Positions 3,630-19,043 of a DNA stretch of 32,619 bases are shown piece by piece. A program made the translations under genes and the position numbers. The notes under the pieces were generated by a model. It was not told where the DNA came from and made no database searches. It saw nothing but the letters and a program-made list of their open reading frames with translations. Positions within the stretch are counted from its first letter, which is position 1. Each line of letters starts with the position of its first letter. Source of the DNA: an uncultured Muribaculaceae bacterium (lineage in GTDB: Bacteria; Bacteroidota; Bacteroidia; Bacteroidales; Muribaculaceae); assembly GCA_947626355.1 (NCBI GenBank), contig CANQRV010000033.1, forward strand, positions 1 through 32,619, written 5' to 3'.

Positions 3630-4130
3630 TTATTTGTCTGGTTTGTAATCCTTGCCTAACTGAAATATGTTAAAATAACACTCTCCATCTACATCTTGCC
3701 ACTTTTCTGTTGGCAGTCTGACTATTCTTATAAATAAAGACATTCCATGTATGCTGTCGTTTTCATGCAAAGCCACCGTCAAGGTGCCGTCAGCCGGGTC
3801 GATATCCAGTCGTCTTACCCATTTCGTAGGTTCTTCAGTTATATTTTCTATTTCACCGAAATAATTTTCCGTTCCCTCCGGATTCCAATAATCCCGATCA
3901 CTATAGTATAACCATGCTTCATATATATGATATTCCCCTCCTTTACGGTCTGTGACTTTGAAAACGGCGGTGCCACCTTCTGCCGGGAAGACATAGGCTG
4001 AATGATCATAATATATAGAATCTGCTTCCGGTCCGGGATACGGCTTGTCATCGCACCCCATCAAGGATGCGCTGATGACAGCCAGTATCATGACCGATAC
4101 ACATTTCTGTATGATTTCAGATATTCTCAT
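3630..4130 (-). CDS. Small lipoprotein, candidate inhibitor of the adjacent C10 peptidase
   Basis: A 166-residue protein with a lipoprotein signal: hydrophobic residues 11-24 and lipobox L23-M-G-C26. The mature part is one beta-rich domain (YVFPAEGGTAVFKV near residues 46-59, recalling BACON/Ig-like folds). Its core, RRLDIDPADGTLTVALHEN, matches RSLDLDASGVLRVDMDEN in the N-terminal domain of the lipoprotein at 5335-6477, so the two share a domain. The start lies 8 bases after the peptidase stop, implying co-translation. In Bacteroides fragilis C10 proteases are encoded next to small lipoprotein inhibitors; by position and size this gene could play that role. That function is inference; lipoprotein status and domain sharing are seen directly. 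Confidence 0.75.
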   Translation of the reverse strand: MRISEIIQKCVSVMILAVISASLMGCDDKPYPGPEADSIYYDHSAYVFPAEGGTAVFKVTDRKGGEYHIYEAWLYYSDRDYWNPEGTENYFGEIENITEEPTKWVRRLDIDPADGTLTVALHENDSIHGMSLFIRIVRLPTEKWQDVDGECYFNIFQLGKDYKPDK

Positions 4131-4138
4131 GTCTCTTA

Positions 4139-5311
4139 TCAGTTTAGATATATATGTTTGAGATTGCTTTTATATTTGACATGACCCTCTGGCGTGGGAG
4201 CAGTCCAATAGTTGCCGTGTACCCATCCATTGCTGGTATTCCAACCCCAGTTGCAGAAATACATGACTTCACCCTTTTCATACTTTATACCGGTAATCAG
4301 CCACATATGCCCCGCTTTTAATGCGGATTTCTTCCCACCTACGGGGTGTGGGAAATTGGCTCTCAGACCGGATGCAAGCCTCGACATTGAAATCTCCTTT
4401 CCCTCGTCATAACTCACATTATAGCCTATATCTCGGAGATACTGGTAACCTGCTTTAGGGTCGGAGGCACCACCGCTGCAACCGAATCTTATCTGGCATC
4501 CCAGTGCTACCTCATGACAGAACGCGGCTATTTGTTCAGGAGATCCGCCTCCAGTCCTAAGTATATCAAACGAGAGATTCCTGTTGCCATAGTATGTACC
4601 GGTGAACTTGCCATATTTTGCAATGGCCTGAGCTATCGCTATCGTGACGCATCCAATCGGGTTATGTCCTAAAATTTTTGCACATTCAGAGCAAGTACAT
4701 TCAGGGGCATACAAATTATATGGCCAACCCTGATGCCATTCTGTTTCGAGAATGTTCTCTATATGATAAGGCGATGCCGGTGAGCCTCCCGGATATGAGA
4801 TGCCATCGCAGGCTTGAAGATTCGAGAGTCCCCAGTCATTGGGGCTTATGGTGATCCGGATCTGGGTCGGTATCGTAGTGACGTATTCTTTCAGGGGCTC
4901 GATATATGCGGTATCGGATACAAGGCCCTTCTCCGTGTAGAAGAAGACCCTTTTCATGGTGCTTGTCGTGCCGACTATGGAGTATCCCTTATGCCCATTG
5001 ACAGTGAATGTCGTCGTGGACACGCTGAAGTCGGGAGATGTGCTTCTTGTGGCTTCTTCGTCGGGAAACACCTCCATGACGGTGTCTCCCACGACGGTAT
5101 AGTGGCGATAGGTCGTTCCCTCGATCACCGGCTCCTCATCATTGGAGCGGCTGTTCCGGTGGATTGACCTGTGGAAGTCGATGACGGCCCTCTCGACGGT
5201 GCCCTCCGGGTAATCCTCATGGCTCTGGATATCATCGACAACATAATCCTGTTTATCGCAAGCGGTGACGCCGGCCAGAATCAGAGCCAGAATAAACAAT
5301 ATCTGTTTCAT
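4139..5311 (-). CDS. C10 family (streptopain/SpeB-like) cysteine peptidase, lipoprotein
   Basis: A 390-residue zymogen-like protein. Residues 1-18 are a lipoprotein signal (VTAC, lipidated Cys18). Residues about 20-160 form a propeptide-like region (GYSIVG, RVFFYTEKG). The catalytic domain begins near 160 with LETEWHQGWPYN, carries the nucleophile Cys221 in GCVTIAIAQ, the catalytic His335 in AGHMWLITG, and the NWGW motif at 354-357 that supplies the Asn/Trp of the active site. All expected catalytic residues are intact. The reading frame runs open upstream to 5425, but that extension overlaps the preceding gene; the ATG at 5311, which produces the signal peptide, is the likely start. It is the middle gene of a three-gene lipoprotein operon, 23 bases after the upstream stop. 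Such peptidases in gut Bacteroidales degrade host or microbial proteins. Confidence 0.92.
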   Translation of the reverse strand: MKQILFILALILAGVTACDKQDYVVDDIQSHEDYPEGTVERAVIDFHRSIHRNSRSNDEEPVIEGTTYRHYTVVGDTVMEVFPDEEATRSTSPDFSVSTTTFTVNGHKGYSIVGTTSTMKRVFFYTEKGLVSDTAYIEPLKEYVTTIPTQIRITISPNDWGLSNLQACDGISYPGGSPASPYHIENILETEWHQGWPYNLYAPECTCSECAKILGHNPIGCVTIAIAQAIAKYGKFTGTYYGNRNLSFDILRTGGGSPEQIAAFCHEVALGCQIRFGCSGGASDPKAGYQYLRDIGYNVSYDEGKEISMSRLASGLRANFPHPVGGKKSALKAGHMWLITGIKYEKGEVMYFCNWGWNTSNGWVHGNYWTAPTPEGHVKYKSNLKHIYLN

Positions 5312-5334
5312 ATAAGTCTTGTAAGTCTTGGTTA

Positions 5335-6477
5335 TCAATAGTTTTTCCACTGGGAGTCGACATATCCGAAATGGAATGACAATGACGAGATTCTGTCGTT
5401 CCAGGAATTTGAGCTCCCTATGCATTTGATTTTCTTAAGGTCGGGATACATCACCTTCCTCTGGTCATATGTGGCGATGACGCTGATCCTGTGCTTGGTC
5501 CTGTCATTGTCGCCATTGTTGTAGTCGCTGTCTTCCCAGATGGTCAGCACCGCGCACACATCCTTGTTAGTTCCGTTATAGGATACCGCAAGCGAGCTGA
5601 CCTTGTCGTTGAGGTTCTTGTTCGACATCTTGTTACAGTCCTCAAACTTATTCAGGCCAAGCAGGTTGTAATACATGTAAGTGTCTGTATAGTTGGAATC
5701 GTCGAACAGCGCGCAATACCCGAGGGCATTTGAGGACTGCCACTGGAACGGGTCTCCGGCCCTCGTCGCTTCCACCGGATATCGAGGCGAGCAAGCCATA
5801 CCCCTCACGTTCTCATTACCCAGATAGACTGTCCCGATTCCGGGTATGCACGGATTGTCGCCTACATAATAGTCCACTATGTCAGACTCGGCCAATACGG
5901 CATTGACGCCGTCTATCTCTGCCAGACTGTCAACCAGATACTGGTAGAGCGGACTCTCATACCGTATCGTGGAGTCGCTTGTGGGTATCACGGGGGAGGA
6001 ATACATCCTGCCGTTGTAGCGGCATCTGATGGATCCTATTGTATCGAATCTCCTGCCGCGCTGCCAGATGATGAACGACTCCTGACGTGGGTTCACGCTA
6101 CCAGAGGCGATGACCACCTCCACACCGCGCATGCGGTCTGAAGTGTTTTCATCCATGTCAACCCTCAGGACTCCGGAGGCATCGAGATCCAGAGACCGTA
6201 CACATCCCGAGGTGTATTCCGACCAGTTCTCGCGGTAGGAGTTGCGTGGGTTCTCCGTCCATTCGTTTGCAATGAAGGCAGTGGCATCTTCCGGAAGATT
6301 GCCGATGATGGGAATCCTGAATTCGGACCGCTCCCGCGACACTATAGTGTCGGGCATCAGGAAGTGGCATCCCGGACTTTCATCGGCGACGGGTCCGACG
6401 TCGTCCGAGCAGGACGGAAGCGACAGCAGTGACAGGGCTGTCAGCGCCGCGATGCAGATTTTGGATTGGTCGCTCAT
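5335..6477 (-). CDS. Lipoprotein with C-terminal Ca2+-binding beta-gamma-crystallin domain
   Basis: A 380-residue lipoprotein (lipobox L20-P-S-C23). Residues about 37-140 form a beta-rich domain homologous to the small lipoprotein at 3630-4130. Residues about 145-240 are an unassigned linker domain (RCRYNGRMYSSPVI, SPLYQYLVDSLAE). Residues about 250-372 form two Greek-key motifs: CALFDDSNY ending in NDKVSS (290-295), then LTIWEDSDYNNGDND ending in NDRISS (360-365). Both hexamers fit the (N/D)(N/D)xx(S/T)S calcium clamp of microbial beta-gamma-crystallins. The peptidase-inhibitor family I36 uses the same fold. I start at the ATG at 6477, which gives a clean signal peptide, not at the frame's upstream end at 6528. 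First gene of the protease operon. Fold is well supported; inhibitor or adhesion role is inference. Confidence 0.85.
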   Translation of the reverse strand: MSDQSKICIAALTALSLLSLPSCSDDVGPVADESPGCHFLMPDTIVSRERSEFRIPIIGNLPEDATAFIANEWTENPRNSYRENWSEYTSGCVRSLDLDASGVLRVDMDENTSDRMRGVEVVIASGSVNPRQESFIIWQRGRRFDTIGSIRCRYNGRMYSSPVIPTSDSTIRYESPLYQYLVDSLAEIDGVNAVLAESDIVDYYVGDNPCIPGIGTVYLGNENVRGMACSPRYPVEATRAGDPFQWQSSNALGYCALFDDSNYTDTYMYYNLLGLNKFEDCNKMSNKNLNDKVSSLAVSYNGTNKDVCAVLTIWEDSDYNNGDNDRTKHRISVIATYDQRKVMYPDLKKIKCIGSSNSWNDRISSLSFHFGYVDSQWKNY

Positions 6478-6582: not shown

Positions 6583-6614
6583 CAAAGATAAGGCAAATAT
6601 CCGGCTTTTGCAAA
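6583..6614 (-). promoter_or_regulatory. Predicted promoter of the C10 protease operon
   Basis: Read on the minus strand, TTTG (6614-6611) is followed after 20 bases by TATCTTTG (6590-6583). This fits the Bacteroidetes vegetative consensus TTTG-N19/20-TAnnTTTG. Transcription would begin near 6577, leaving a leader of about 100 bases before the ATG at 6477. Confidence 0.6.
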
Positions 6615-9192: not shown

Positions 9193-9223
9193 CAAAGGTA
9201 AGCATTCTTTTTGAAACAGCAAA
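9193..9223 (-). promoter_or_regulatory. Predicted promoter of the ABC-permease-GntR operon
   Basis: Read on the minus strand, TTTG (9223-9220), a 19-base spacer, then TACCTTTG (9200-9193): an exact fit to TTTG-N19-TAnnTTTG. The start would fall near 9187, inside the palindrome, giving a leader of about 95 bases. Confidence 0.75.
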
Positions 9224-9386: not shown

Positions 9387-12300
9387 TCAGCGGAGCTGGA
9401 GCTTGCGGCTCATGGCGCCGCTCGGGGTGTCGACCACAAGCATGTAGACGCCATTCTCAAGACCGGAAAGGTCGTGGAAGCCTCTGCCCTCCTCATCAAG
9501 CACTACCCTGCCGTCGACTGTGTAGAGCGCTACGGAGGTGTAGTCGCCGGTTACCGTCAGCGTCCTGCCGTCGAGGATGTAGGTCACATCGGCGGCTTCG
9601 ACTGTGTTGACGCCGGAGCTTGTCACTTCGATGTCGAGGGTAGCCAGCGGCGAATAGCCAGAAGTGTAGACGGAGCGAACACCAACGGTGTGGCGGCCGA
9701 GCGTCATGTCGCGGAGCTGCCAGGAGGTCTCGGAGGTCTCCCCTATCTTCACGCCGTCGAGATAAACCTCGTAGGCACCCTCGGCCCTCGGCATACGCCT
9801 GGGAGCGTAATACGGATTGTCGAAGAGAGAGGCGTGACCGAGGCGGACATTGTCGATCATCAGGATACTTCTCTGGGCGGATGTGCAGTGAATGGCCACA
9901 TACTTGGCCGAAGAGGGTATATCATAGCAGAGTTCATTCCACCATGCATCAACAGTTCGGTTCTCCTCAACCCAGATGAAGTCAACGGGCTCACAGCCGG
10001 TCTCGGAATAGCCAACCTGGATTGTCTCCGGATTCATGCCGTTGAGACTCATTGCATAGAAGCTGAATCTCACAGGCTCGGTGAAGAACAGACGCGGGGA
10101 GATGAACCAGTCGTCGTTGGCATCACCGTAAGAAGCGAAGTCAGCGAGCATCTTCTGGCCCTCATAAGGATAGATGCCCATCACGTCGCAGGCAGGCTCT
10201 GTAGCGTATGGATTGAATACCATGAACGCCATCGGCTCGAATACACCGGGCCACTCATAGCCTACGAAAGCACCGGTCTCACCGCCGTCGCCGTCGATAT
10301 ACTGCCAGCCGAACTTGCCCGGGGAGTTGATCTCGAAGTCGGGATGCTCCTCGAATCCGTCCTCGATCATGTCGGGGAAGTTCCATACAAGGAGCTGGTC
10401 GGAATCATATTCACCCTCGGCCACAGCCTGGAGGTTCTGCGGAGCCTGACGTTCTTCGGTGAGGTTGAGAGTGAGTGCATACTCATTTTCGGAAGAAAGG
10501 TCGAGCTCCTGCTGGATCAGGCCGAAGCCTTCCTTGCCGACCGAGAGGACATAACGGCCTTTCCATATGGGCGACACCTCGAGGATGCCCGTGGCGTCAA
10601 AAGCTCCTGTGTAATTGTGACTGCCATCCGCGTTGGCGAGGTTGTAGTATGCACCCTCGGCCTCGTTTTGCGGAGTGTCGGTGATCACGGTGAGCTTGAG
10701 AGTGGTCTCCATGTTGCGGCCGATGCTGTCGGCATAGCATATCGGAGACTCCTCGCCGCCGGCATAGACGGCCTTCACGCCATAGCGGTAGACACCCTGC
10801 GGAAGGGCATTCCATTCCAGATCGGCATATTCCCTCTCCTTGAGGCCGGAAGCGATCTGCGACCATTCGGTCTGCTCGGGATCAAGGGTGTTGACGCCAC
10901 GGTAGACGTTGTAGCGGATACGGTCTTCGACGGCCTTCCTGGGACCATTGTCAACATTCGACACATAGTCATCGGGGAATGTGTAGAGCTGCGGAGCGGC
11001 GATATCGGAAGACTTTGGAGCTTTTGCAGGCATCCATACGGGCTGGCCGTCGCCGCCGTAAGGAGCGGCCACGCTACGGAAGGCGAAGTTGGCCTTGAAA
11101 TCGGTGTTATCGAGATATGCCCACTGACCGGAAGTATAGTCGGAGCAATAGCAGTTGACACCGGGCACGAAATCCTCGCCGTTGTCGATAGAGAGGCTGA
11201 CGAAGCCGCTGTAGGCCACGCCCATCATATAGCCGTTGGGGCAATCGACAGGAGCCGGCAGGGTGAACTCCGACCATGTATCGTCGGTCATCGGCACATA
11301 GGTATTGCTGTAGAGCACACGGTCGGTAGGATTACCTTCCGCGTCAAGGTCGATGATGTAGACGTATACACTGTAATGGTTGGTGACGGATACCCTAGAG
11401 GCTATGTGGAACGAGCAACCATACACCACAGATGGAGTGCGGTTGACATGGCCGAAGATGGAATAACTGTTGCCGGATTCCATACCGAGCGAGCGCTCGA
11501 GGATTCCATTGTCATACCTCACTTCCCGGGGGTCGCCGAGGGGAGCCATCCATCTCACGGTCGAGACTTCGTCGGTCTGCGAGGCCACTACCTTATGGGG
11601 CGCCTTGAGGTTGTCGGCGAGGGTAATGTCGCCGAAGTCCATGTCGGCGTCAAGGTCGAATGTCGTGCTGTAGCTCATCAGGTTGTCGCGCTCCACCACA
11701 AGGCTGTAGCCGGCGTGGGCGAACACTGCGGGAATATCGAATGAGCCATCGGCGGCGGTAGTAGCGGTATATGCGTTGTAGCCGCCAAGCGATACTTTGG
11801 CATCGACGACAGCATCACCGACTGCATCGATTACGCGTCCTTTGACAGAATATTCCGGGAGAGCCCTCAGGGAGAAGTCGGCAGAACCGGTCTCGAGCTC
11901 CCTGATCTCGATTGTAGATGTCTCGTCCTCAAAGCCGAGAGCGGAGATTATGATGTCGTAGGTGCCGGCGGGGAGATACTCAAGGATGTACTCGCCATTG
12001 GTGTCGGAAACAGAGGTGTAGAGGCCGTCGGAGGTAGCCACGGTAGCACCCGCCACGGGGGCGCCATTGCTTGTCAGCACACCCTTCATGCATCCGTCAT
12101 GGTCTTCCTCGATGCGGATATTGCCGACGGTAAGACCAAAGTCAGGCTCTACAGAGCGATGGACGAAGCCGAAGTTGTAGTCGCCATCCTTATCCACAAC
12201 GGGGAGGGATGCGCGGAAAGTCCTTACACGGTCGCTGCGGAACTCATACTGCGTCACGCTGTCCTGCGCCATGGGAGTTGGCTCCGGGCCGAAGCTGACA

Positions 12301-14009
12301 GCAAGAATCTCAGTCACGTTCTTGTTGCCCGGGAGGGCATCAAACGTCACCTTATAATGCTGACCTTCCTTCATGGTCACCTTCGGAGAGATAAGATAGT
12401 CATGGGCCGGCATCTGATAGAAATAGCTATATGTAGACTGGGCGCCTGTCATCGGCCAGCCGGTATAAGTCCATCTGTTCTCGTCGCCATTGCCGTCGAT
12501 TACTTCCCATGTGTCGAATTCCTCCTGAGTGGCGAATCCGAATGTGTGGGGGACACTGACGGCAGGGCCGCAGACAACACGGTCGGACACCACCTCCACC
12601 GACTCGCCGCCGATGTTCTTCGCCTTCACGCGATAGGAATAGCGGGCGAGATCGGTGATGGTGTTGTCGATAAACTCAGACTCGCGGCAGTCGGTGGCCA
12701 CCGTCACGCCGTCGGAGCGCGTAATCTCGAACACAAGCGAAGAGAGGTCAAGATAAGCGTCAAACTTTCCATGGTCGGGAGCCGTCCATGTCAGCTTCGC
12801 CCCATATCCCTCGGGAGCAAGGATGAGGTCGCTCACAGGCATCGGGATGCCCTGGCCTACGAAGATGGTCTTCACGTATCGGTCGCCGCGGCCGGCCTCG
12901 TTGTGGCAGACCACCTTATATGAATAGAGGTCGTTGGCGGCCACATCATCGTGATATGTCATGGCCTCTCCCACCGCGGGAGACTCGAACGTCTTTATGA
13001 GCTCGTCGTCGCGGTAGACCTCCACCTTTGTGATTGACTCGAGCGTGCCGCCGCGGCCATATGTCCTGGTGGGATTGGTCCAGCTGAGAGTGATTCCGAG
13101 TGCACCTTCAGGATCGGGAGTCACCTCATAGTCGGAGACCTTGGCGGGAGCTCCGGCGGAAGCGACGGTGAACGGGATATGGAAATCGCCCATCAGACGG
13201 TCGTCGCCGAAGATGCCCACCTGCTCCGTGTTTGCGTTCCTGATATTGATCCTGCGCACCTCTTTATAGAGGTTGACCCATGTATAGACATGCCAGTATA
13301 GCTCGTTTGTATCGTTGTCGAAAGCGAGCGAAGTAGAATACATAATAGCCTTCTCAGGGTTGAAATCGAGATCACCCACGAGCGTACACTCGCCGCTGAC
13401 CTTGTTGACCTTATAAAGCCGGCCCCAGTAGGAGACGCCATACATCTCGCCGTCGTAGTTGACAGCGATGGCTTTGAGAGAGTCTTCGCTGTCATATTCC
13501 TCGTTTTTAAGGAGACCTGTGAACGACAGCAGCTTGGTGACATTTCCGGTCTCAAGGTCAACGCTCACGAGGTCTCCTCCACCCATCAGGCCGGAGAGTG
13601 CGTAGACGGTCTGTGTCTGATAGTCGTAGGTAGGAGATGAGAAGCAGATGCCCTGTTTCTGTCCGCCATAACTCTTAACGAGGCTGACAGAACCATCCTC
13701 GGTGTCATAGACATAGAGCGCATCGGAGTCATAGCCATAGTCCTGCTGCACATATTCAAACCAGTAGTATTTGCCGTCGACCATCACACCTGCACCAAGT
13801 GAGTTGCCGCTGGATATAGGATGAACCATAGTAAAGGTCTCGGGAGATGACAGGTCATAGTTGACTATACCTATCTCGGGCGACTGGTTGTCGAGCTGGC
13901 CGGTCAATAGCGACCAGACAGTCTTGGACTCCGCATGCACGCCAAAGGCTGTCGCCGAAGCGATGCACAGGGCTGACGCAAGGGTAGTCCATTTTTTCGT
14001 TCTGTTCAT
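9387..14009 (-). CDS. Giant T9SS-sorted surface protein, FN3 / choice-of-anchor J / carboxypeptidase-regulatory domains
   Basis: A 1540-residue exported protein. Signal peptide 1-26 (ends GVHA). Residues about 30-285 contain propeller-like blades (YYWFEYV, LYVYDTEDGS, LVSVDLETGNVTKL). Then come FN3-type domains (about 290-490), a choice-of-anchor J/cleaved-adhesin-like domain (about 490-635, DTWEVIDGNGDENRW), two CarboxypepD_reg-like domains (about 640-780, PVAGATVATSDG; VKGRVIDAVGDAVVDAKV), further FN3 and anchor-J modules including one near 1225-1390 (GWQYIDGDGGETGAF), and a T9SS type A C-terminal domain at 1467-1540 (LYTVDGRVV, LENGVYMLVV, RKLQLR). It would cross the outer membrane by T9SS and be attached to the surface. 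It follows the Omp28-like gene by 31 bases, so the two are co-transcribed. The ligand is unknown. A protein of similar architecture is encoded at 20937-24269. Confidence 0.88.
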   Translation of the reverse strand: MNRTKKWTTLASALCIASATAFGVHAESKTVWSLLTGQLDNQSPEIGIVNYDLSSPETFTMVHPISSGNSLGAGVMVDGKYYWFEYVQQDYGYDSDALYVYDTEDGSVSLVKSYGGQKQGICFSSPTYDYQTQTVYALSGLMGGGDLVSVDLETGNVTKLLSFTGLLKNEEYDSEDSLKAIAVNYDGEMYGVSYWGRLYKVNKVSGECTLVGDLDFNPEKAIMYSTSLAFDNDTNELYWHVYTWVNLYKEVRRINIRNANTEQVGIFGDDRLMGDFHIPFTVASAGAPAKVSDYEVTPDPEGALGITLSWTNPTRTYGRGGTLESITKVEVYRDDELIKTFESPAVGEAMTYHDDVAANDLYSYKVVCHNEAGRGDRYVKTIFVGQGIPMPVSDLILAPEGYGAKLTWTAPDHGKFDAYLDLSSLVFEITRSDGVTVATDCRESEFIDNTITDLARYSYRVKAKNIGGESVEVVSDRVVCGPAVSVPHTFGFATQEEFDTWEVIDGNGDENRWTYTGWPMTGAQSTYSYFYQMPAHDYLISPKVTMKEGQHYKVTFDALPGNKNVTEILAVSFGPEPTPMAQDSVTQYEFRSDRVRTFRASLPVVDKDGDYNFGFVHRSVEPDFGLTVGNIRIEEDHDGCMKGVLTSNGAPVAGATVATSDGLYTSVSDTNGEYILEYLPAGTYDIIISALGFEDETSTIEIRELETGSADFSLRALPEYSVKGRVIDAVGDAVVDAKVSLGGYNAYTATTAADGSFDIPAVFAHAGYSLVVERDNLMSYSTTFDLDADMDFGDITLADNLKAPHKVVASQTDEVSTVRWMAPLGDPREVRYDNGILERSLGMESGNSYSIFGHVNRTPSVVYGCSFHIASRVSVTNHYSVYVYIIDLDAEGNPTDRVLYSNTYVPMTDDTWSEFTLPAPVDCPNGYMMGVAYSGFVSLSIDNGEDFVPGVNCYCSDYTSGQWAYLDNTDFKANFAFRSVAAPYGGDGQPVWMPAKAPKSSDIAAPQLYTFPDDYVSNVDNGPRKAVEDRIRYNVYRGVNTLDPEQTEWSQIASGLKEREYADLEWNALPQGVYRYGVKAVYAGGEESPICYADSIGRNMETTLKLTVITDTPQNEAEGAYYNLANADGSHNYTGAFDATGILEVSPIWKGRYVLSVGKEGFGLIQQELDLSSENEYALTLNLTEERQAPQNLQAVAEGEYDSDQLLVWNFPDMIEDGFEEHPDFEINSPGKFGWQYIDGDGGETGAFVGYEWPGVFEPMAFMVFNPYATEPACDVMGIYPYEGQKMLADFASYGDANDDWFISPRLFFTEPVRFSFYAMSLNGMNPETIQVGYSETGCEPVDFIWVEENRTVDAWWNELCYDIPSSAKYVAIHCTSAQRSILMIDNVRLGHASLFDNPYYAPRRMPRAEGAYEVYLDGVKIGETSETSWQLRDMTLGRHTVGVRSVYTSGYSPLATLDIEVTSSGVNTVEAADVTYILDGRTLTVTGDYTSVALYTVDGRVVLDEEGRGFHDLSGLENGVYMLVVDTPSGAMSRKLQLR

Positions 14010-19012: not shown

Positions 19013-19043
19013 TTTGGAATCTCAGGATTTTGAACTAATTTTG
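19013..19043 (+). promoter_or_regulatory. Promoter placing the start of transcription at the ATG of the TPR-AraC gene
   Basis: TTTG (19013-19016), a 19-base spacer and TAATTTTG (19036-19043) fit TTTG-N19-TAnnTTTG exactly. The ATG at 19049 is only 5 bases beyond the last G, so the transcript may be leaderless. Confidence 0.65.

Follow-up and report, generated by a model that had tools for sequence, protein, structure and literature searches.

A predicted calcium-type beta-gamma-crystallin lipoprotein recurs beside a C10 cysteine peptidase in a Muribaculaceae bacterium and its relatives

What controls or aims the C10 (streptopain-type) peptidases of the Muribaculaceae? C10 matches are found in 180/198 sampled genomes of this family, yet the control and aiming of these enzymes are poorly known. 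We examined a locus of an uncultured Muribaculaceae bacterium where a C10 gene lies between two other lipoprotein genes (contig CANQRV010000033.1; the window is the whole stretch of DNA analysed, 32,619 nucleotides). The three genes, here A, B and C, occupy the minus strand from 6477 to 3630 and are ordered A, B, C in the direction of transcription, with intergenic gaps of 23 bases (A-B) and 8 bases (B-C). A lipobox stands at the start of all three products, and this layout is as the earlier note had described it, positions included.

6583..6614, minus strand: promoter-like site of Bacteroides type, TTTG-N20-TATCTTTG, an exact match about 100 bases upstream of gene A
5335..6477, minus strand: gene A, a lipoprotein of 380 aa with a BACON-like domain, a middle domain (MID), a Thr-Arg linker and a beta-gamma-crystallin domain, in this order
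4139..5311, minus strand: gene B, a C10 (streptopain-type) cysteine peptidase lipoprotein of 390 aa (PF01640, E 1.2e-11)
3630..4130, minus strand: gene C, a predicted BACON-like lipoprotein of 166 aa
3491..3527, minus strand: hairpin, a possible terminator situated about 100 bases beyond gene C

The pattern TTTG-N20-TATCTTTG, which we take to be the Bacteroides promoter consensus, occurs three times in the window against 0.03 expected from shuffles, and the hairpin 3' of gene C has 15-base arms that are 93% complementary and a 7-base loop. The G+C content is 0.533 in gene A, 0.492 in gene B, 0.419 in gene C and 0.550 in the window. A role in anti-phage defence was rejected, the three proteins being without any PADLOC match.

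Gene B matches PF01640 at 45.7 bits (cut-off 26) and the catalytic residues are in place in an alignment of partner C10s, consistent with the proposal that the middle gene encodes an intact C10 peptidase; proteolytic activity is predicted.

4142..4741, minus strand: mature peptidase domain of gene B, with Cys221, His335, Asn354 and Trp355

The genome has seven C10 matches, this one included. Nine relatives were found at E<=0.001 in a very large protein collection, the same species included, all 374-396 aa long and all matching PF01640.

What are the proteins on either side? The gene A product can be divided as follows.

6409..6420, minus strand: lipobox LPSC, with CSDDV as the mature start
6043..6381, minus strand: BACON-like Ig domain, residues 33-145
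5860..6036, minus strand: MID, residues 148-206, b-b-a-b-b in the predicted model
5749..5856, minus strand: disordered linker, residues 208-243 (pLDDT 32-43 in blocks 211-240)
5752-5766, minus strand: TRAGD (residues 238-242), proposed processing site in the linker
5350..5745, minus strand: beta-gamma-crystallin domain, residues 245-376
5593..5610, minus strand: first Ca-type motif, NDKVSS
5488..5538, minus strand: strongly conserved loop WEDSDYNNGDNDRTKHR, candidate interaction site
5383..5400, minus strand: second Ca-type motif, NDRISS

The mature start CSDDV resembles SDDDD, the signal proposed for export of B. fragilis lipoproteins to the surface (excerpts of PMC5080379). In the predicted model, the first domain is an Ig-like sandwich that matches solved BACON structures, the best Bacteroides structure being 2mw1. 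A Pfam scan of the gene A protein itself gave no PF13004 match, and 20/33 aligned gene A relatives match PF13004 at E<=0.1 (best 2.1e-5). MID is also present in MID-crystallin proteins that have no BACON part. When profiles of MID, the BACON part and gene C were compared with the proregion of the partner C10s, none matched, and the idea that MID or BACON duplicates this proregion was rejected.

Gene C is nearly an orphan. Apart from the species itself, a homologue search recovered a single relative (43%), gene C has no Pfam match of its own, and pairwise BLAST against gene A is not significant (E 0.28). Profile-profile comparison of gene C with the BACON region of gene A and its relatives gave E 6.2e-8, and no link was found to the other operon parts tested. 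When gene C was scored as a single sequence against the BACON profile, it reached E 0.0025. The control was 32 other lipoprotein-like frames, each scored singly: at the top were two L013 lipoproteins (one with a weak PF13004 match) and the N-terminal frame of the split gene A relative of L096, and the best of the 29 remaining frames reached E 0.03. Against PF13004, two of four lipoproteins of similar operons gave weak matches under the cut-off (E 4.2e-4 and 0.061) and two gave none. The gene C model (mean pLDDT 73, from ten sequences) also has 2mw1 as its best Bacteroides structure, with unrelated Ig folds within about 1 Z unit. Thus, gene C is predicted to be a BACON-like lipoprotein and the domain common to A and C a BACON-like, generic surface domain. 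The core that the earlier note had seen in the first and third products is therefore borne out by profile comparison. Its further suggestion, that this domain docks on or inhibits the protease, found no support: the domain is BACON-like (the 20/33 PF13004 matches above), and excerpts of PMC12853789 describe BACON as common across Bacteroidota and suggest that it is a spacer. We accordingly set aside the shared domain as a C10-specific docking domain. The element that tracks C10 is the MID-crystallin protein, which also has relatives without C10.

The crystallin domain has a two Greek-key fold in the predicted model, as judged by structure comparison. The NDXXSS motif of beta-gamma-crystallins, N/D-N/D-X-X-S/T-S, occurs once per Greek key (excerpts of PMC3551895), and it is present in each Greek key of the gene A domain. 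We infer that this crystallin is of the calcium-binding type. Thus the calcium-binding module formerly ascribed to the first gene stands, as a Ca-type beta-gamma-crystallin by fold and motifs, with the binding itself a prediction. Conservation is highest in the loop region (residues 314-331), where the mean top-residue fraction is 0.82 against 0.67 for the whole crystallin domain and 0.39 for BACON; pLDDT falls below 50 at residues 320-322. Inhibitor_I36 (MEROPS I36), the family of crystallin-fold protease inhibitors, is not among the 12 Pfam families listed for 33 gene A members at E<=0.1.

Is the pairing of crystallin and C10 peculiar to this window? A C10 gene lies on the same strand within 1.4 kb of an A-type crystallin protein in 15/18 distinct loci: the window, C79, L012, L013, L014, L015, L017, L018 (a remnant), L019, L022, L057, L058, L060, L061 and L062. 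C79 is a second such pair in this very genome. The loci without C10 are L020 (contig edge), L021 (degenerate) and L016, which has none in 7 kb on either side and keeps the crystallin and two BACON-like lipoproteins. To arrive at 18, duplicates were merged by hand, and L023 (a 38-residue fragment), L069, L082 and L102 (all three of the MID-crystallin lineage without C10), BACON-only matches and duplicate fetches were dropped beforehand; imperfect loci that were kept are L018 (80-residue C10 remnant), L020 (starting near the contig end), L021 (degenerate) and L057 (ending at the contig end). In L019, L020 and L058/L096, the gene A relative falls into two frames. Absence of C10 genes beside such proteins in other genomes had been named in the earlier note as counting against its reading, and their presence is what we found. 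Thus, the crystallin-C10 pairing is genuine, and the set of three proteins is found outside the window as well.

The gene order varies, with C10 before or after A and one or two BACON-like lipoproteins between them, after them or absent. BACON-like lipoproteins, identified mostly via the N-terminal part of the A-family profile, occur in 8/18 loci (window, L013, L014, L016, L017, L022, L095, L098). At L022, the crystallin gene is devoid of BACON, and downstream of it lies a gene for a stand-alone BACON-like lipoprotein, showing that the parts are modular. The reach of the search depended on the query: searching with the gene A protein alone gave relatives in just 2/198 family genomes, while the A-family alignment found 12 loci in one genome collection, matches in at least 24/397 genomes sampled from this family (this genome among them; some BACON-only or MID-crystallin) and partial matches in five other genomes among 393 sampled at order level. 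Four first-look candidates were scored per genome in the alignment searches, so loci may have been missed. In a separate protein collection, 3/9 C10 relatives have a longest contig equal in size to that of a gene A relative (149937, 6574, 6939), which suggests, without proving it, that the two lie on the same contigs.

Are the partner C10s intact? Cys and His are present in the 16 aligned partner C10 frames except the first C10 of L013, that of L019 and the L018 remnant, whose Cys region is outside alignment coverage. Both catalytic residues are gone from the first C10 of L013, the one that adjoins the crystallin gene, and in L019 the His is replaced; the second C10 of L013 keeps Cys and His and has no Asn-Trp pair. 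The collection protein P0077, listed for 31 contigs, shows the same losses as the first C10 of L013, and in two further collection C10 relatives the His was not matched by the search pattern.

A second lineage carries MID, the Arg site and the crystallin and has no BACON part, with no C10 within the 7-11 kb read. Four of its members (L101, L102, L105, L107) have operon neighbours that encode a small lipoprotein, a TonB-dependent receptor and DUF4249, the receptor and DUF4249 being assigned by Pfam for L101 and L102 and by resemblance for L105 and L107. L106 has no receptor in the stretch read, and L103 and L104 are MID-crystallin genes standing alone in one genome of another family. MID-crystallin thus looks like a cassette acquired or kept by one set of C10 operons. 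These operons bear on the idea that the proteins of our locus never touch and are simply surface proteins under common regulation that serve to forage on proteins or glycoproteins, with matrix or glycans bound by the crystallin and BACON parts. The company of TonB-dependent receptors and DUF4249 fits foraging, as does the original description of BACON alongside carbohydrate-active domains (excerpts of PMC12853789), but C10 pairing in 15/18 loci with variable gene order exceeds what loose co-regulation usually gives, and we think this reading quite unlikely.

The same operons speak against the crystallin protein being just an inhibitor of C10, since MID-crystallin lipoproteins exist there without C10. 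Could A, C or both nevertheless be cognate inhibitors that keep C10 harmless until release, as proposed for Spi, staphostatins and Bfi/Bti? Their genes adjoin C10 at operon-like spacing, and the conserved flexible loop of the crystallin could serve as a reactive loop; some crystallin-fold proteins do inhibit proteases. Some Bacteroides C10 genes are also co-transcribed with putative staphostatin-like inhibitors (excerpts of PMC3462683 and PMC2873492), but those inhibitors are 116-138 aa long, and A (380 aa) and C (166 aa), which like Bfi/Bti adjoin the C10 gene and, with a lipobox each, are predicted to be exported, fall outside this size. Moreover, 9/18 loci already have a separate small protein (105-134 aa, its start signal-like on visual inspection) upstream of C10 (C79, L012, L013, L019, L022, L096, L097, L098, L099); by size, the one feature compared, it fits Bfi/Bti better than A or C does. 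An assignment of these small proteins to DUF3244 was rejected: of five scanned, L013 alone matched, weakly and below the cut-off (E 0.091). With the BACON-like nature of the shared domain also against it, inhibition by A or C, the chief alternative to the explanation favoured below, is in our view unlikely.

How might the crystallin domain be released? In gene A, Thr-Arg (residues 238-239) of the linker precedes the crystallin domain. Of 69 relatives fetched, 66 have a recognisable crystallin motif, and 58/66 carry [TSG]R within 30 residues around the crystallin start, compared with 298/2483 background windows (12%) of the same proteins. Partner C10s have a similar site: TR[AGST] falls within the 32 residues that precede the mature domain in 12/15 partner C10s and 1/34 other C10s, a difference for which Fisher p 5.9e-8 is a guide only and overstates the case, since the sequences are related and not independent. 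Duplicates and the last three residues were removed for this count, and the 34 controls, mostly long C10s of secretion-tail types, are not the best control. The looser [TS]R gave 13/15 against 10/34; [TSG]R[AGSTD] gave 13/16 against 9/33 in a count that includes some duplicates and the Thr-Arg of the mature domain itself. These Arg sites before the crystallin and before the mature domains of partner C10s suggest joint maturation. The C10s of this genome's own crystallin pairs (window and C79) do not support it, since neither has an Arg site before the mature domain, and the site is found in 5/9 of the closest C10 relatives.

Candidates for an Arg-specific protease are the C25 (gingipain-type) proteins, of which this genome has six matches (five exceed the cut-off); one of the six lies two genes downstream of the C79 crystallin gene, and one match may be a type IX secretion sortase. 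C11 was rejected for this role, with no match in this genome. On the basis of the Arg sites and the C25 matches, we suggest trimming of the gene A product by an Arg-specific protease, which in many relatives would also process the C10. Alternatively, gene A might be a substrate of C10, which would liberate the crystallin domain as an effector. A disordered linker does separate the lipid-anchored part from the crystallin domain, but the conserved linker residue is an Arg after Thr, whereas C10 enzymes of the SpeB type favour hydrophobic residues in the P2 position, and the same kind of site occurs where no C10 is found nearby. We consider this role improbable.

The explanation that we favour, tentatively and with somewhat less than even confidence, is a surface-displayed C10 with a dedicated partner whose calcium-locked crystallin, a binding module, is freed by Arg cleavage, with BACON as a spacer. 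One promoter would give three lipoproteins that end up in the outer membrane, probably facing outwards. Gene B would be the C10 zymogen, gene C a spacer domain without cargo, and gene A the dedicated partner, consisting of a lipid anchor, a BACON spacer, the small pro-like MID, a flexible linker containing the Arg and the calcium-locked crystallin. An Arg-specific protease would cut the gene A product after Thr-Arg, freeing the crystallin domain beside C10; its conserved loop may then bind C10 or the target of C10, such that a binding part and a cutting part act together. In most relatives found via the crystallin gene, the C10 zymogen has the same kind of Arg site and both could be matured together. 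This explanation draws support from the 15/18 pairing, the second pair at C79, the crystallin fold with its Ca-type motifs, the Arg sites and the C25 matches; it is weakened by the MID-crystallin proteins without C10, by L016, by the catalytic losses in L013 and L019 and by the two crystallin-paired C10s of this genome, which have no Arg site before the mature domain. A bolder version, which we regard as doubtful, is an undescribed two-part surface device of gut Bacteroidales in which the same Arg-specific protease matures the C10 zymogen and a removable, lipid-anchored, calcium-locked crystallin; the crystallin would be an exchangeable binding part, and the MID-Arg-crystallin cassette would have moved between protease and TonB-receptor operons. 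A partner that keeps appearing beside C10 genes, with a calcium switch predicted and a candidate site for maturation, opens the control or targeting of commensal proteases to concrete tests.

How does this locus compare with known systems? A limited literature search, in which part of the matches were examined, returned no description of a C10-crystallin pair, and within it the operon appears undescribed. Spherulin 3a (1hdf), the F. johnsoniae protein 3hzb and vibrillin, all microbial beta-gamma-crystallins, have the fold and the paired NDxxSS motifs in common with gene A, whose crystallin differs in forming part of a lipoprotein with BACON-like and MID domains, encoded in a protease operon. 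BACON (PF13004) is, as in gene A, an Ig-like N-terminal domain of Bacteroidota surface proteins; what differs is that it is here fused to MID-crystallin and also stands alone beside C10. T-Mac of Treponema denticola (TDE0362) is one polypeptide, with no crystallin domain in its abstract, and Ig matches at such Z values are common. In Streptococcus pyogenes, SpeB is a C10 with an adjacent partner gene, as here, but Spi is a propeptide analogue according to the excerpts consulted, and the tested parts of A, and C, are unlike the partner C10 proregion. The Bacteroides precedents are Bfp/Bfi of Bacteroides fragilis and Btp/Bti of B. thetaiotaomicron, also lipoprotein C10s beside small exported partners, several of them co-transcribed; in contrast to A and C, the partners there are small and staphostatin-like, and the excerpts of PMC2873492 and PMC3462683 mention no BACON or crystallin partner. 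A C10 with co-encoded exported partners is a known theme, and what appears to be new here is the partner that bears a crystallin.

At a G+C content of 0.419 against 0.550 for the window, gene C (window 3630-4130), the BACON-like lipoprotein gene of the operon, is far richer in AT and looks, from its composition, as if it had been recently acquired. Further to the Bacteroides-type promoter-like site upstream of gene A, the window holds the following features:

9193-9223, minus strand, exact Bacteroides-type promoter-like site
9387-14009, protein of 1540 aa that contains the domains CarboxypepD_reg and Cleaved_Adhesin and, at its C-terminus, weakly matches a sorting domain
19013-19043, plus strand, exact Bacteroides-type promoter-like site

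The same genome carries another C10-crystallin pair on a second contig, C79 (L094, 3076-10732). Downstream of it, a gingipain-type C25 protease is encoded between proteins of 346 aa (before it) and 393 aa (after it), with ends that by eye resemble secretion tails. At the related locus L013 (2984-7015), the C10 adjoining the crystallin gene lacks both catalytic residues, and another C10, with Cys and His, comes after the crystallin gene.

Lipoproteins joining the small middle domain (MID), an arginine site and the crystallin domain are also encoded in operons without C10 (L101, L102, L105 and L107), where their neighbours are a TonB-dependent receptor, a DUF4249 protein and another lipoprotein of small size; the receptor and DUF4249 are assigned by Pfam in L101 and L102 only. 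Two MID-crystallin lipoproteins stand alone (L103, 5686-6420; L104, 5751-6503), both in one genome of a different Bacteroidales family, and here too arginine precedes the crystallin domain. Upstream of some operons lie genes for TPR proteins (L012, 3280-5169; L102, 2680-4446; L022, 3325-5013, the last with weak TPR and HTH matches), which may be regulators of the adjoining operons.
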